Positions 47,778 through 51,494 of a stretch of DNA of 64,000 nt are shown here, in pieces. A program made the position numbers and the translations under genes. The stretch is from Ancylobacter aquaticus (GTDB lineage: Bacteria; Pseudomonadota; Alphaproteobacteria; Rhizobiales; Xanthobacteraceae). Each line of letters begins with the position of its first letter. Within the stretch, counting starts at the first letter, position 1. The DNA is taken from the NCBI RefSeq assembly GCF_004339465.1, contig NZ_SMFY01000001.1, forward strand, positions 310,001 to 374,000. Direction: 5' to 3'. The notes under the pieces are model-generated. The model saw nothing but the letters and a program-made list of their open reading frames with translations. It was not told the origin of the DNA and did no database searches.

Positions 47778-49103
47778 TCAGCCTTCCTCGCCCGCTACCA
47801 ACCGGCGCAGCACGGCCTCCATCTCGAACAGGTCGCTATAGACGATGGCGTAGCGCGGCAGCTGGTCCAGCGTGTCGAAGAAGGCGTCGAACTCGGCCGC
47901 GCCGGCCTCCTCGGCGAGATCGAATTCCGCGTCCATCAGTTCGAGCAGCGCCTGCGAGGACGAGATCGCCGCGACCCGTGTCGGCGCTCCCGCCTCGAAG
48001 CGGGGGAAGACGAAGCAGCGGACATGGTTCTCGCCACCCTCGGGGCCGAGATGGAGAGCGAGCGGCACAGGCAGATAGCGCCCGCGCTTCTCGCCCACGC
48101 CGATCAGCGGCAGCGCCGCCAGCTGGGGGTGGAAGGGCAGGAGGGTGGGGTAGCTCCCCGACTTGACATTGATCGCGCCGGGGCAGGGCAGCACCACCGC
48201 CTCGCCATCCCGAAAGCCGAGGGCGAGAGAATCATCCGTGCCGAAGCGCCAGCCGCGCGTGACCAGATAGGCGGAAAGCGTGCTCTTGCCGGCGCCCGAT
48301 ACACCGGCCATCACCACCGCGCCGGCAGTGGTGGCAAGCACCGCGCCGTGGACGAAGACGCAAGGGCGGGGGTGGCGGTAGACGAGATCGAGCAGCCAGA
48401 GCCGCACCTTGCCGACCGCGACCGCGACCTTCTCGGTGAACAGGCGGCGCGGGCCGCAGCGCAGCAGGAAACCGTCCGGCGTTACCACGAGATGGATGGT
48501 GGCAAGGGGGGGATGACGATCCGGGGCGGGATCGAGAAAGCCGCCGAAGAAGCCGAACATGCGCCGGCCGCTCGCCAACCGGGCGGCGAAGCAATCGGGA
48601 TCGGGCGCGTCGTCGAAAGCGGACGGGTCGTCTAGCGCCGCCTCCCCGCCGGGGCCCTCTGATCCGCCACCGCTGACGAACAGGCGAAACGCGACGGATG
48701 AGCCGGCCAGCCGGACTTGGTAGCGATCAACCAGACTCTCGTCGCCCGCCGGGACGAGGCTTGTGGCGCGCGTCTCGTCCGGCCGGGGCGCCCTTTCGTC
48801 CCGCAGCCGCACGCGGCCGGCGCCATCGCGTTCGATCCAGCCGAACGCCTCCCACGCGCCGAGGCAATCACGGAGATCCTGCGTGCCGAGCCCGGAGGCC
48901 TCGCCGAGGGCGGTGGGCGTGACGAAGGCGTCGGGCAAAGTGAGGAAAAGCCGTGCGGCGGCCGCGTTAAGCGCGTGCGCCATGTCGCGGTCCTTGTCGA
49001 AGACAAAGAGCACGTCGTCGAGAACGCGGAAATAGAAGCGCGGCTCGGCGCTGCGGGCACCGGGGTCGGTGTCGACCGTCGCGGGGAAAACGATGTCCGT
49101 CAT
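47778..49103 (-). CDS. PqqD-like / HPr-kinase-like fusion protein
   Basis: A 441-residue cytoplasmic protein. Residues about 20-95 resemble a PqqD/RRE peptide-binding winged helix (FRVLDDVLFVFDKDRDMAHA, then ALNAAAARLF). The C-terminal half is an HPr-kinase-like P-loop domain: GVSGAGKS at 267-274, TDDSLAL at 289-295 and preceding VFVHGAVL. Relatives are known as HPrK-related kinases next to PqqD proteins, and as the kinases that phosphorylate the C-terminal Ser of some lasso-peptide precursors. Here both parts are one chain. It follows four small peptide genes on the same strand; the peptides all end in Ser or Cys. I infer that it binds the peptides through the PqqD part and phosphorylates them. 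Confidence 0.8.
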   Translation of the reverse strand: MTDIVFPATVDTDPGARSAEPRFYFRVLDDVLFVFDKDRDMAHALNAAAARLFLTLPDAFVTPTALGEASGLGTQDLRDCLGAWEAFGWIERDGAGRVRLRDERAPRPDETRATSLVPAGDESLVDRYQVRLAGSSVAFRLFVSGGGSEGPGGEAALDDPSAFDDAPDPDCFAARLASGRRMFGFFGGFLDPAPDRHPPLATIHLVVTPDGFLLRCGPRRLFTEKVAVAVGKVRLWLLDLVYRHPRPCVFVHGAVLATTAGAVVMAGVSGAGKSTLSAYLVTRGWRFGTDDSLALGFRDGEAVVLPCPGAINVKSGSYPTLLPFHPQLAALPLIGVGEKRGRYLPVPLALHLGPEGGENHVRCFVFPRFEAGAPTRVAAISSSQALLELMDAEFDLAEEAGAAEFDAFFDTLDQLPRYAIVYSDLFEMEAVLRRLVAGEEG

Positions 49104-49147
49104 GGCGTGCCTTCACCAACCAAGCGGGGGCCAGAAGGCGCCCGCCG

Positions 49148-49183
49148 CCTGCCGCACTGACTATAAGCCGAGAAGGCGGCAGG
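49148..49183 (-). terminator. Hairpin between peptide gene 1 and the kinase gene
   Basis: 8-base arms CCTGCCGC (49148-49155) and GCGGCAGG (49176-49183) around a 20-base loop, in the 173-bp gap before the kinase gene. In an operon read on the minus strand this would reduce transcription from the peptide genes into the kinase gene, as expected for abundant precursor and scarce enzyme. Confidence 0.4.
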
Positions 49184-49276
49184 TCCTGGAGCGCCTGCAA
49201 TGATCCGGTCGATAGGAAAACGCTCGGGAGCACATACCGACCCGTATGCAGCGCACGCTGTTCGGCAGATCACCCC

Positions 49277-49435
49277 CTAGCTGTCGGCGGCGGCGCGGCG
49301 GACCGACATCAGGCTGAGCGTTGCCGGCACCGAGTAGGCCGCCACCTTGCCGAGCCGGCGCAGGGCGTCTCGCCGCCGTTCGTCGGTGGTCTGCAGCGGC
49401 TTCTTGACGAGGTGGGCGTTGTCTTCGGCTGGCAT
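49277..49435 (-). CDS. Small peptide 1 of a four-member tandem family
   Basis: Encodes 52 residues with an acidic/polar N-terminal half and the core RRDALRRLGKVAAYSVPATL, then SLMSVRRAAADS, ending in Ser. GGAG lies six bases before the ATG. The family shared by the four genes is RRxxLxxLG, then AxYxxPAT, then a Met and an Arg before a short tail. I do not recognise a named family. It looks like a RiPP precursor: variable leader, conserved core, next to a PqqD-kinase and a nucleotidyltransferase. It is the peptide gene nearest the kinase gene. Confidence 0.78.
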   Translation of the reverse strand: MPAEDNAHLVKKPLQTTDERRRDALRRLGKVAAYSVPATLSLMSVRRAAADS

Positions 49436-49526
49436 CGAGGGCTCCGAACGATCGGCGGCATCCCTCCTGAGGCGGGTGCAGGTCTTTAGAGATGCCGGTG
49501 GGCCAGGGCCTGGTAGGGCATGTCCT

Positions 49527-49549
49527 CGCCCGGCATCAAGAGCCGGGCG
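49527..49549 (-). terminator. Hairpin between peptide genes 2 and 1
   Basis: Perfect 8-base arms CGCCCGGC (49527-49534) and GCCGGGCG (49542-49549), 7-base loop, 8 bases past the stop of peptide gene 2 on the minus strand. It could stabilise the message for the upstream peptide genes. Confidence 0.45.
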
Positions 49550-49557
49550 GGCAGACG

Positions 49558-49755
49558 TCAGCAGGCGCGGGCGGAGCGGGTCATCGCCATCAGGCTCACC
49601 GTTGCCGGCGCCGCATAGAGGGCCGTCCGCCCCAGCTTGGCCAGTGCCGCCCGCCGGCGGGGGTCGGCCGCCTCGCCCGGCGCCGGGGCTACACTTGCCG
49701 AAGGGCGCACCGCCGGGGCCGGCAAATCGTCGGAGAATTTATCAGGATGGTCCAT
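49558..49755 (-). CDS. Small peptide 2 of the tandem family
   Basis: 65 residues, the longest member because of a Pro/Ala-rich leader (DLPAPAVRPSASVAPAPGEA). The core is RRRAALAKLGRTALYAAPAT, then VSLMAMTRSARAC. It is the only one of the four that ends in Cys instead of Ser. GGGAG lies eight bases before the ATG. All four genes have their own ribosome site or spacer and none overlap, as is common for repeated precursor genes. Confidence 0.8.
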   Translation of the reverse strand: MDHPDKFSDDLPAPAVRPSASVAPAPGEAADPRRRAALAKLGRTALYAAPATVSLMAMTRSARAC

Positions 49756-49832
49756 GCGAGGTCTCCCGAAAAAGGTGTGTGAAGTCGGGGCCGCGCCGCG
49801 TCATCGGCGGCGGAGCGATGCCGCTGCCGCCA

Positions 49833-50009
49833 TCAGCTTGCCCGAGCGGAACGGGACATCATCATCAGGCCCACCGTGGCGGGCACGCTGTAGGCGGCGA
49901 CCCGGCCGAGCTTGGCCAGTGCCGCACGCCGGCGCAGCTCGGCGCCTTCCAGGGGTGGGCTGGAGGCGGGAGCGTCCCGCCCGGTCGTCGGTTCGTGATC
50001 AGTCGCCAT
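49833..50009 (-). CDS. Small peptide 3 of the tandem family
   Basis: 58 residues with the core RRRAALAKLGRVAAYSVPAT followed by VGLMMMSRSARAS, ending in Ser. The core is nearly the same as that of peptide 2 (ten identical residues in RRRAALAKLGR), so these two are likely the most recent duplicates. GGGGG lies upstream of the ATG at 50009. A longer frame crosses this place on the same strand but has no family features. Confidence 0.8.
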   Translation of the reverse strand: MATDHEPTTGRDAPASSPPLEGAELRRRAALAKLGRVAAYSVPATVGLMMMSRSARAS

Positions 50010-50067
50010 GGTGCCCCCAGATATATCGAGCCGAGAGAGGTAAAAATGAACCTCTGCCGGTCTGTCG

Positions 50068-50229
50068 TCAACTGCCCGCCACGGCCCGGCCCATCATCAT
50101 CACCGCCAGCGTGGCCGGCACCGCATAGGCGGCGCTTCGGCCGAGCCGGCGCAGGGTTTCGCGGCGAGGCTCGTCGGTGGTGGCCGTCTTTTCCGGCTCG
50201 GTCAGCGAAGGCGTCTTGCACATATTCAT
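50068..50229 (-). CDS. Small peptide 4 of the tandem family (first in the operon)
   Basis: 53 residues with the core RRETLRRLGRSAAYAVPAT, then LAVMMMGRAVAGS, ending in Gly-Ser. ATG codons at 50229 and 50223 are both possible; neither has a strong ribosome site. It is the most upstream gene of the minus-strand set and faces the nucleotidyltransferase gene across a divergent gap of about 195 bases. Confidence 0.78.
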   Translation of the reverse strand: MNMCKTPSLTEPEKTATTDEPRRETLRRLGRSAAYAVPATLAVMMMGRAVAGS

Positions 50230-50423
50230 CTCGTCGGGGGAGGTTGGAAGGCGGGGCGAAGGTAGTTCCTTGGTACCTCTAGCGTGTTATGAGACAGCGC
50301 GAACTGCGCTGCCATCCTGGCCGCAAGCCCGCGTGCTTGCCTGCCCGGGAAGGCTCCAATACCGTTAGCGCGAGCGCCTGATCCGCGCGCCACGCCGCGC
50401 CGCCGGCGCTGTCAGGGGTTGCC

Positions 50424-51494
50424 ATGCCGAGCCGGTCTCCCGCCCTTGAAGGCCTGCGCCTGCTCTGCGCCCTCGTATCGCCGTTCTCCACCCGCGACCC
50501 GTTGCTGGCCGACTGGCCCGCAGTGACGCCATGGGGAGCCCTCCTCGCCCAGGCGGACACGCATCGGCTCATTCCCGCCCTTTCCGTCGCCCTCGCCCGC
50601 CATGGGCTCGGCGACCGCGTCGACGCGGAGCTGGCCGATGTGCTCGCGGCCGTGGCGGCCTGGAACACGGAGCGCAACGAGGGTTTCCGGCGGCAGATGC
50701 GGACGCTGGGCGAGGCGCTCAATGCGGCGGGTGTCCAGCCGGTATGGCTCAAGGGGGCGCTGTCGCTGCTGCCGCCGGACGGCCCCGCCGCCGGGCGCCA
50801 GATGATGGACCTCGACATGTGGGTGCCGGGCGAGAGCCAGCGGCGCGTGGCGATGGGCGTGCTCAGGAGCCTTGGCTACGCCTCGGACGGGCCGGAGGAG
50901 AGCCGGCGGCATTATCCGCCCTTCTTCCATCCCGACGAGATGGCGCGGGTGGAGCTGCACCACAGCGTGATCGCTCCCCACGACGCCCTGTTGCCGGGCG
51001 ATATCGCCGCCGGGGTGGAGTGGCTGGACTGGGAAGGACAGCGGATCGGCCGGCTCGACCCGCTGTCGCGCGCGCTGTGCTCGCTGGCGCAATGCACCAG
51101 CCCGCTGCTGTACACCCGGCTGGCGACGGCCGAGGTTCCGCTGGTGAAGGTGCTCGATCTGGTCGGGCGCATCCATGACGATTTCGGCGGCGTCGTGCCG
51201 CCGGCCTTCATTGCCCGCGTCAGGGCGGCGGGGTGGGAACGGCCGACGCAGCGCCTCCTCACGCTGACCGAGGCCTGTTTCGGCCTGCCCAATCCGTTGC
51301 CGGCGGACCCGGCGCAATTGCGGATGCTGGAGCGGTTCACCCGGCTGCCGCGCTGGCATCTCACGCTGAGGGCAACGCAGGCGCTGATGGGTGGCGGAGG
51401 GCGGCGAATCCTGCGCGCGCCGTGGCAGGCGCCGGGCATGGTTGCGCGCTACGTCCGGGGGCTCATCGCGCCGCGTGCGCCGAAGGAGCTTTGA
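50424..51494 (+). CDS. Nucleotidyltransferase-family protein (NTP_transf_5 type)
   Basis: A 356-residue protein of the uncharacterised nucleotidyltransferase family often found with PqqD- and HPrK-like proteins. The nucleotidyltransferase signature is visible as VWLKGALSLL (K110, G111) and the metal-binding pair in MMDLDMWVPG (D129, D131); VELHHSVIAP follows. The ATG at 50424 has GGGG upstream. It diverges from the peptide/kinase operon. I infer that it modifies the same peptides, perhaps adding a nucleotide after phosphorylation; its real substrate is unknown. Confidence 0.8.
   Translation: MPSRSPALEGLRLLCALVSPFSTRDPLLADWPAVTPWGALLAQADTHRLIPALSVALARHGLGDRVDAELADVLAAVAAWNTERNEGFRRQMRTLGEALNAAGVQPVWLKGALSLLPPDGPAAGRQMMDLDMWVPGESQRRVAMGVLRSLGYASDGPEESRRHYPPFFHPDEMARVELHHSVIAPHDALLPGDIAAGVEWLDWEGQRIGRLDPLSRALCSLAQCTSPLLYTRLATAEVPLVKVLDLVGRIHDDFGGVVPPAFIARVRAAGWERPTQRLLTLTEACFGLPNPLPADPAQLRMLERFTRLPRWHLTLRATQALMGGGGRRILRAPWQAPGMVARYVRGLIAPRAPKEL

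Follow-up and report, generated by a model that had tools for sequence, protein, structure and literature searches.

Tandem peptide genes linked to a fused recognition element-kinase gene in Ancylobacter aquaticus: a candidate compact RiPP-type peptide-modification system

The stretch of the Ancylobacter aquaticus genome analysed here (contig NZ_SMFY01000001.1, positions 310,001 to 374,000; 64,000 nucleotides, hereafter the window) contains a compact gene cluster, in which four tandem genes for short peptides (49277-50229, minus strand) are followed by the gene for a protein that joins a predicted recognition element of ribosomally synthesized and post-translationally modified peptide (RiPP) pathways, or RRE, to an HprK-like kinase (47778-49103, minus strand), with a nucleotidyltransferase (NTase) gene on the other side of the peptide genes (50424-51494, plus strand). 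The source genome, G000, comprises 4.83 Mb in 11 contigs. The features are listed below, where RR is the twin arginine of the peptides, ORF is open reading frame and pN/pS is the ratio of nonsynonymous to synonymous differences.

50424..51494, plus strand: NTP_transf_5 nucleotidyltransferase-like protein (N component), 356 residues; PF14907 match at 4e-28, 99.1 bits (cut-off 31.2).
50068..50229, minus strand: candidate precursor peptide 1, 53 residues, ends ...GRAVAGS; ORF; ortholog group G, pN/pS 0.34 from RR to the end; profile score 72.2 bits (own sequence in profile).
49833..50009, minus strand: candidate precursor peptide 2, 58 residues, ends ...SRSARAS; ORF; group M, pN/pS 0.35; profile score 79.6 bits; GGGGG upstream of ATG.
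49558..49755, minus strand: candidate precursor peptide 3, 65 residues, ends ...TRSARAC; ORF; group C, pN/pS 0.19 from RR to the end and 0.94 before it; profile score 80.3 bits; GGGAG upstream of ATG.
49277..49435, minus strand: candidate precursor peptide 4, 52 residues, ends ...RRAAADS; ORF; group D, pN/pS 0.48; profile score 75.5 bits; GGAG upstream of ATG.
47778..49103, minus strand: predicted fusion of an RRE (PqqD-like, B1 type) and an HprK-like peptide kinase, 441 residues; TIGR04352 match, structure model and H-K-D-D residues.
48804..49049, minus strand: predicted RRE domain, residues 19-100 of the fusion, bbb-aaa-b topology; predicted topology, profile matches and hhalign.

The four small ORFs (52, 65, 58 and 53 residues) lie exactly where an earlier note on this DNA had placed them, and the shared elements which it had described, RRxxLxxLG followed by AxYxxPAT and then by a methionine and an arginine ahead of a short end, are present in 4/4 peptides. 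The peptide genes are separated from one another by 58, 77 and 122 bp and the last of them from the kinase gene by 173 bp, these five genes sharing the minus strand; a purine-rich element precedes the ATG in three of the four. The NTase gene, which had been described as facing the peptide genes, is present, but the description was loose, as it diverges from the first peptide gene with 194 bp between the two start codons. A sigma-70 promoter scan gave no match, a result that carries no weight either way.

The closest named relatives of the kinase were found in A. vacuolatus (85%), Xanthobacteraceae bacterium 501b (79%), A. rudongensis (70%) and A. polymorphus (60%; all values for the best tblastn segment). 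The earlier note had named a lack of conservation beyond this genome as a finding that would refute it; the peptides proved to be conserved multi-copy genes in four relatives, with five copies beside the kinase at locus L002, six at L003, three at L004, and two complete copies plus one remnant at L005 (A. polymorphus). Pooled pN/pS values (NG86 point estimates for four ortholog groups of 3-4 sequences each, with L005 and extra paralogs left out) were 0.48, 0.35, 0.19 and 0.34 from RR to the end for groups D, M, C and G, respectively, against 0.66, 0.57, 0.94 and 0.22 for the residues N-terminal to RR. The values of 0.19-0.48 indicate constraint on everything from RR to the C-terminus, and the residues before RR drift more freely in three of the four groups, group G being the exception. 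At L005 (4905-5311, 3534-5787), the NTase is represented by its 3' part only, which overlaps the remnant of the first peptide, and the kinase ORF is intact.

The motif YxxP is found in 4/4 window peptides and in 21 of the 23 complete peptides of the Ancylobacter-type genomes and genome G130; three of the window peptides end in serine and one in cysteine. Within its own genome the peptide profile gave four matches, all of them in the cluster described here (16 of 132 first-look candidates scored). None of the four matched a Pfam model at E<=1, and eight peptides from relatives gave insignificant Pfam matches only; among the scanned peptides as a whole, no Pfam cut-off was reached, and a single peptide passed an NCBIfam one, that of TIGR01409, a generic twin-arginine translocation (Tat) model.

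The kinase part of the fusion matched HprK_rel_A (TIGR04352) over residues 243-435, at 80.8 bits against a curated cut-off of 200, and the fusion scored 13.6 bits against a cut-off of 35 for TIGR04353; the TIGR04352 cut-off was exceeded in 0/397 genomes of the order. Residues H252, K273, D290 and D291 correspond to the H-K-D-D of PadeK-type peptide kinases, a motif reported for lasso kinases (PMC9266682). In a predicted model of the fusion (predicted local distance difference test, pLDDT, 81.8; predicted template modelling score, pTM, 0.80), residues 23-28, 31-36 and 41-45 form strands, 47-55, 63-70 and 74-87 form helices, and 90-92 a further strand. Structural comparison of the whole model returned HprK and PEPCK folds only, over the C-terminal part, and is thus uninformative on the RRE. 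A profile of the fused RREs alone matched the solved lasso proteins TbiB1 (1.8e-11) and TfuB1 (3.6e-9), with the designed protein 7bqq (0.0013, short stretches) ranking between TfuB1 and LppB, and hhalign gave 98.5% for the fused RRE against four discrete PqqD-like proteins. By these profiles and the predicted topology, the N-terminus of the kinase is a B1-type RRE, the type that binds YxxP leaders. The fusion of a PqqD-like domain to an HPr-kinase-like domain claimed in the earlier note is thus upheld through predicted topology, profiles and the TIGR04352 match, although its PqqD_rel_X match (residues 28-67, E 0.1) is insignificant and the TIGR04352 score lies below the cut-off. TbiB1 (PDB 5v1u/5v1v) and TfuB1 (6jx3), the best-scoring solved relatives, were solved as complexes of a lasso RRE with its leader; like them, the window system combines a B1-type RRE with a YxxP leader, but they are discrete proteins of lasso pathways with a cyclase and a leader protease, whereas the window domain is fused. 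The HPr-rel-A systems (TIGR04352/TIGR04353) likewise pair an HprK-related kinase with a PqqD-type chaperone, and differ in that the window RRE is part of the kinase, whose score falls short of theirs. An unfused version was seen at L166 and L173, where a discrete PqqD gene (PF05402) stands beside the kinase, with an NTase adjoining.

Peptide and kinase go together. In 397 genomes of the order, searched with peptide profile A1 (built from the Ancylobacter-type and G130 peptides; match at E<=0.01) and with TIGR04352 (match at E<=1e-10), at least 28 genomes were positive for the peptide, at least 29 for the kinase and at least 16 for both, where 2.0 were expected (hypergeometric p 1e-13). These counts are lower bounds, because at most 16 peptide and 6 kinase first-look candidates per genome were scored. 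With the profile-source genomes G000, G077 and G130 removed, 13 of 394 had both, against 1.6 expected (p 5e-11). Of 45 order-level peptide matches, 24, spread across 12 genomes, lay within 3 kb of a kinase match, the largest distance being 1.7 kb. In a held-out test, kinase profile A2 was searched against 385 class genomes, of which 38 were positive, and 40 of its 42 matches were retained, the excluded two being that of the window and a fragment at the end of a contig; a wider peptide profile, made from window and order-level peptides only, located a peptide no more than 2.5 kb from the kinase at 20 of these 40 loci (24 matches in 230 kb). The outer flanks (162 kb) yielded no peptide match at E<=0.001 and one at E<=0.01, and five two-base-block shuffles of the DNA yielded none. 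The family search proposed earlier, with its test for co-occurrence, was therefore borne out in the order genomes for the kinase (16/397 against 2.0 expected), but not for the NTase, which is untied to the peptides in the 40 class loci, as described below.

A census of 63 chosen loci, training members included, gave 68 kinase-linked peptides at 40 of them; tail measurement was crude, and AxA or AxS sites were called by a simple rule. The residue three before the proline is tyrosine in 38 of the 68 and phenylalanine in 10, and an AxA or AxS site follows downstream in 65, with tails of 1-165 residues past it. In the Ancylobacter-type and G130 peptides, 22 of 23 complete sequences have 0-2 residues after the last AxA, and one has five. 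Outside this group (48 peptides), tails start at six residues and are composed of 22.6% glycine, 16.0% serine and 9.6% proline, and all 45 that were measurable contain serine, threonine or cysteine. The Ancylobacter peptide is thus nearly all leader, as a rule with 1-2 residues past AxA, and other Alphaproteobacteria have the same kind of leader with Gly/Ser/Pro-rich cores of about 6-165 residues.

Several of these tails are distinctive. Seven kinase-linked peptides at L092 (5618-7390) and three at L093 (6374-7096) form arrays of the type KRxTLDxLVKGAAF.xPVVASFAMD...AQAQVANGSGV with short variable ends. Peptides at L021 (7557-7865), L022 (7039-7332) and L028 (7905-8222) have variable cores and share the C-terminal end GHSGC, which suggests that they are modified at a shared site close to the C-terminus. 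Cores made up of long Ser-Pro-Gly/Arg repeats, possible substrates for phosphorylation at multiple sites, occur in kinase-linked peptides at L161 (6182-6493), L177 (4388-4723) and L173 (4358-4678). At L025 (1078-10332) and L029, the kinase, peptide and NTase stand beside ORFs that by eye resemble asparagine synthase, AMP ligase and acyl carrier protein. In a sample of the phylum, 76 of 299 genomes matched the kinase profile, most of the listed matches covering the kinase domain only. Other Pseudomonadota may share the principle, since 5 of 22 phylum kinase loci, taken with short flanks, carry RR/AxA-type proteins of 73-224 residues from stop to stop (E 0.0006-0.4), weak evidence as yet. Outside the class, L191 (372-896), L193 (366-884) and L203 (207-878) have RRRLxKxL...VPVxLTLSSGAALAA leaders in stop-to-stop frames of 173-224 residues, which end in SCWNSFMQP at L191 and L193 and in SCWSSFAK at L203.

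A twin arginine, an uncharged stretch, a basic c-region and an AxA site are the hallmarks of Tat signal peptides. Scored with our own script, the 23 Ancylobacter-type and G130 peptides have RR in 23/23, AxA within the last 12 residues in 23/23, a basic residue in the c-region in 22/23 and an uncharged stretch of 13-18 residues, and the source genome has one match each for TatC and an S26 signal peptidase. It could be reasoned that these are short Tat signal peptides of the ordinary kind, or else small exported proteins, with the RRE-kinase as a Tat-proofreading chaperone or regulator that gates export by phosphorylation; the one wider relative that passes TIGR01409 speaks for this, as does the processing of a published group of phosphopeptides, described below, by a signal peptidase I homologue (PMC13381572). 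However, no window peptide matched an NCBIfam Tat model at E<=1 (4/4), nor did two of the four at E<=10, and 14 of 15 scanned relative peptides failed the TIGR01409 cut-off. The peptide profile is also not that of a generic Tat signal, because it matches 28 of 397 order genomes (with up to 16 candidates per genome scored) and about half of its matches lie beside the kinase, and the Y..P pair within the hydrophobic stretch, together with the B1-type RRE, points to leader recognition. We consider this explanation unlikely, if the most serious of the alternatives.

On its two sides, the cluster is flanked in the window, L002, L003 and L004 by a pdxA-like/epimerase pair and by a citrate-transporter-type gene; L005 agrees on the citrate-transporter side only. 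Ten chosen neighbour ORFs between 41.2 and 61.1 kb were scanned against Pfam, others such as those at 57.2-59.3 kb lying outside the scan; eight fell into families (CoA-transferase, enoyl-CoA hydratase, DRL oxidoreductase, PdxA, epimerase, CitMHS, purine-type permease and Tex) and two had none. In agreement with the earlier note, none of the ten is a cyclase, B2 (leader) protease, radical SAM enzyme or exporter of the MsbA-like type, nor is any a signal peptidase, and no polysaccharide gene was recognised among them, the epimerase excepted.

The catalytic-looking residues of the NTase are kept, since K110, G111, R125, D129 and D131 are invariant across 20 aligned sequences, window included. 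Of the 15 kinase loci checked at first, 14 had an NTase relative within the retrieved region (a fragment at L005, a weak match at L024), and L020, on a 3.7 kb contig, had none. Among the 40 held-out class loci, it was present at 22, made up of 10 of the 20 peptide-positive loci and 12 of the 20 peptide-negative ones; the NTase is therefore not tied to the peptides, and a step that depends on it is not general. It is a frequent, not an obligatory, companion of kinase and peptide, and an obligatory NTase in the wider family is rejected. A second NTP_transf_5 gene in the source genome (contig C2, 1261321; L214, 7998-9326) matches the family more strongly and has patatin and LysR neighbours; no peptide match was found in its 17 kb locus.

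Genes of the HPr-rel-A type are frequent in polysaccharide loci, and the kinase and NTase might accordingly act on some other molecule, such as a polysaccharide or a lipid, with the peptides as co-travelling products that are regulatory or membrane-active. The lack of a peptide match at half of the held-out kinase loci, where the NTase is as frequent as at the others, would fit, and two known groups of phosphopeptides, linear polyphosphorylated peptides (LPPs) and paeninodins, are often encoded in capsule loci (PMC13381572). The tight linkage of peptide and kinase, the fusion of a peptide-binding type of RRE to that kinase, and the ten scanned neighbours, free of recognised polysaccharide genes apart from the epimerase, argue against this possibility, which we rate as distinctly improbable.

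The earlier note had presented the system as one of a type not known to its author, but novelty of the type is not supported: a kinase, an NTP transferase, an RRE and YxxP without a cyclase have been published as LPPs, RiPPs whose role is unknown and which are said to be confined to Bacillota (Popov et al., Nat Commun May 2026; PMC13381572). LppK polyphosphorylates Ser3 of a linear core and is inactive on the S3T and S3Y variants, and the leader is removed, with help from the RRE, by LppS, a homologue of signal peptidase I. The window system resembles LPPs in its HprK-like kinase, PqqD-type RRE, YxxP leader, small in-cluster precursor genes and lack of a macrolactam cyclase, and both have an NTP transferase, likened by description (the window protein by its PF14907 match of 99.1 bits). 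However, LPPs have a discrete RRE, where that of the window is kinase-fused; a dedicated SpI-like peptidase and MsbA-like exporter, neither of which is among the window's scanned neighbours; the leader motif YxxPxVLxHQxIxFETxxS, of which the window peptides have YxxP without the rest; and, in LppA, a core of 45 residues, where the window core would be about one residue after the putative cleavage. The window precursors also differ in carrying a twin-Arg/AxA leader. Because the discrete RRE, the in-cluster peptidase and exporter and the full leader motif are wanting, the system is not filed as an LPP, though most likely, by analogy, it works like one. For the alphaproteobacterial group of peptides and RRE-kinases itself, no description was found in the open-licence literature of PubMed Central, a scope outside which preprints and subscription papers lie.

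Paeninodin and pseudomycoidin, in which a kinase/NTase pair was already known, offer a second comparison. PadeK phosphorylates a C-terminal serine, and PsmK with PsmN gives a phospho-hexosyl serine, the choice between hexose and nucleotide transfer by PsmN being left open by the review (PMC9266682). The likeness lies in an HprK-type kinase with conserved H-K-D-D, theirs acting on the C-terminal serine, and in an NTase, theirs giving hexosylation of the serine phosphate and likened to that of the window by description, not by Pfam family; the difference is that, as reviewed, both are lasso peptides with a cyclase and a B2 protease. A lasso locus is rejected for the window, since neither gene is among the ten scanned neighbours and the only Transglut_core3 gene of the genome is some 1 Mb distant. 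That gene (lasso B2-like; contig C1, 1357984; L213, 7931-8485) stands beside ABC-2 transporter genes, with no cyclase in the six ORFs scanned there. A degenerate lasso locus, in which leader, RRE, kinase and NTase were left after loss of the cyclase and B2 peptidase, would account for the B1-type RRE with a YxxP leader, for a kinase/NTase pair known from lasso clusters (PMC9266682) and for the lone Transglut_core3 gene. It sits poorly with the recurrence of the same kind of peptide beside the kinase at many alphaproteobacterial loci (where 10 ORFs of L166 and L173 were scanned for a cyclase and had none), with pN/pS below 1 and the retention of 2-6 complete copies, and with the lack of a lasso-length core in Ancylobacter; we regard it as very unlikely.

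Overall we favour, with a confidence slightly above even, a compact RiPP-type peptide-modification system working like the LPP pathway. The RRE of the fusion would grip the precursor by its YxxP strand, and the HprK-like kinase would then phosphorylate a C-terminal nucleophile, mostly the last serine, as PadeK, PsmK and LppK lead one to expect. Less securely, the NTP_transf_5 protein might add a hexose or a nucleotide to the phosphate, in the manner of PsmN. The least certain step is the last, housekeeping Tat export with cleavage by signal peptidase I at AxA, which is proposed because the precursors carry the twin arginine, uncharged stretch, basic c-region and AxA set out above.

A number of observations weigh against this reading, in addition to the poor Tat-model scores, the uneven occurrence of the NTase and the lack of an exporter or peptidase gene among the scanned neighbours. 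Of the 28 peptide-positive order genomes, 12 had no TIGR04352 match, the best E being above 0.001 in 8 of them (in one order genome, G037, a diverged kinase-like ORF adjoins the peptide), and at 20 of the 40 held-out kinase loci no peptide match exceeded the threshold, with a share of the first-look candidates scored in each search; some of these loci, L152-L155 (E 0.02-0.14) and L159 (E 0.011), have look-alikes below threshold, and others have none. The last residue of 20 Ancylobacter-type peptides is serine in 12, cysteine in four and asparagine, valine, glycine or arginine in one each; a strict rule of a C-terminal serine is thus rejected, and cysteine as the phosphate acceptor is doubtful because of the inactivity of LppK on S3T and S3Y. 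Cleavage at AxA, leaving 0-2 residues in 22 of 23 peptides, would give an odd product. At L005, where the NTase is truncated, two of the three peptides have lost YxxP and one retains it; this speaks for the reading, but it is a single case which could be joint decay, and it is weakened as an argument because L003, with a whole NTase, also has a peptide without the tyrosine. Lastly, the support comes from sequences, profiles and a structure model, with modification, binding and export as predictions. The earlier proposal that the peptides are substrates of the fusion accordingly survives in part: their conservation beyond this genome, their linkage to the kinase above chance and the B1-type RRE speak for it, the unpaired genomes and loci against it, and the four peptides are probably substrates of the RRE-kinase fusion.

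At its most speculative, the Ancylobacter precursor could be a disposable carrier for a single C-terminal residue (serine or cysteine) that is phospho- or phosphoglyco-modified and then released; the product would be an amino-acid-derived small molecule, at the extreme end of an undescribed phosphopeptide RiPP branch in Pseudomonadota. We think this improbable; if it were true, RRE binding and Tat-type export would share one leader stretch across a large branch of the phylum. In general terms, the evidence points to a broad alphaproteobacterial counterpart of LPPs with its own precursor family and a simpler architecture, in which recognition and kinase are combined in one protein, the leader is signal-like and the cores are very short or rich in serine, glycine and proline. 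The group provides testable substrates for HprK-like kinases and for a type of NTase whose reaction is unsettled, and a small model system for peptide recognition, phosphorylation and, possibly, Tat export.

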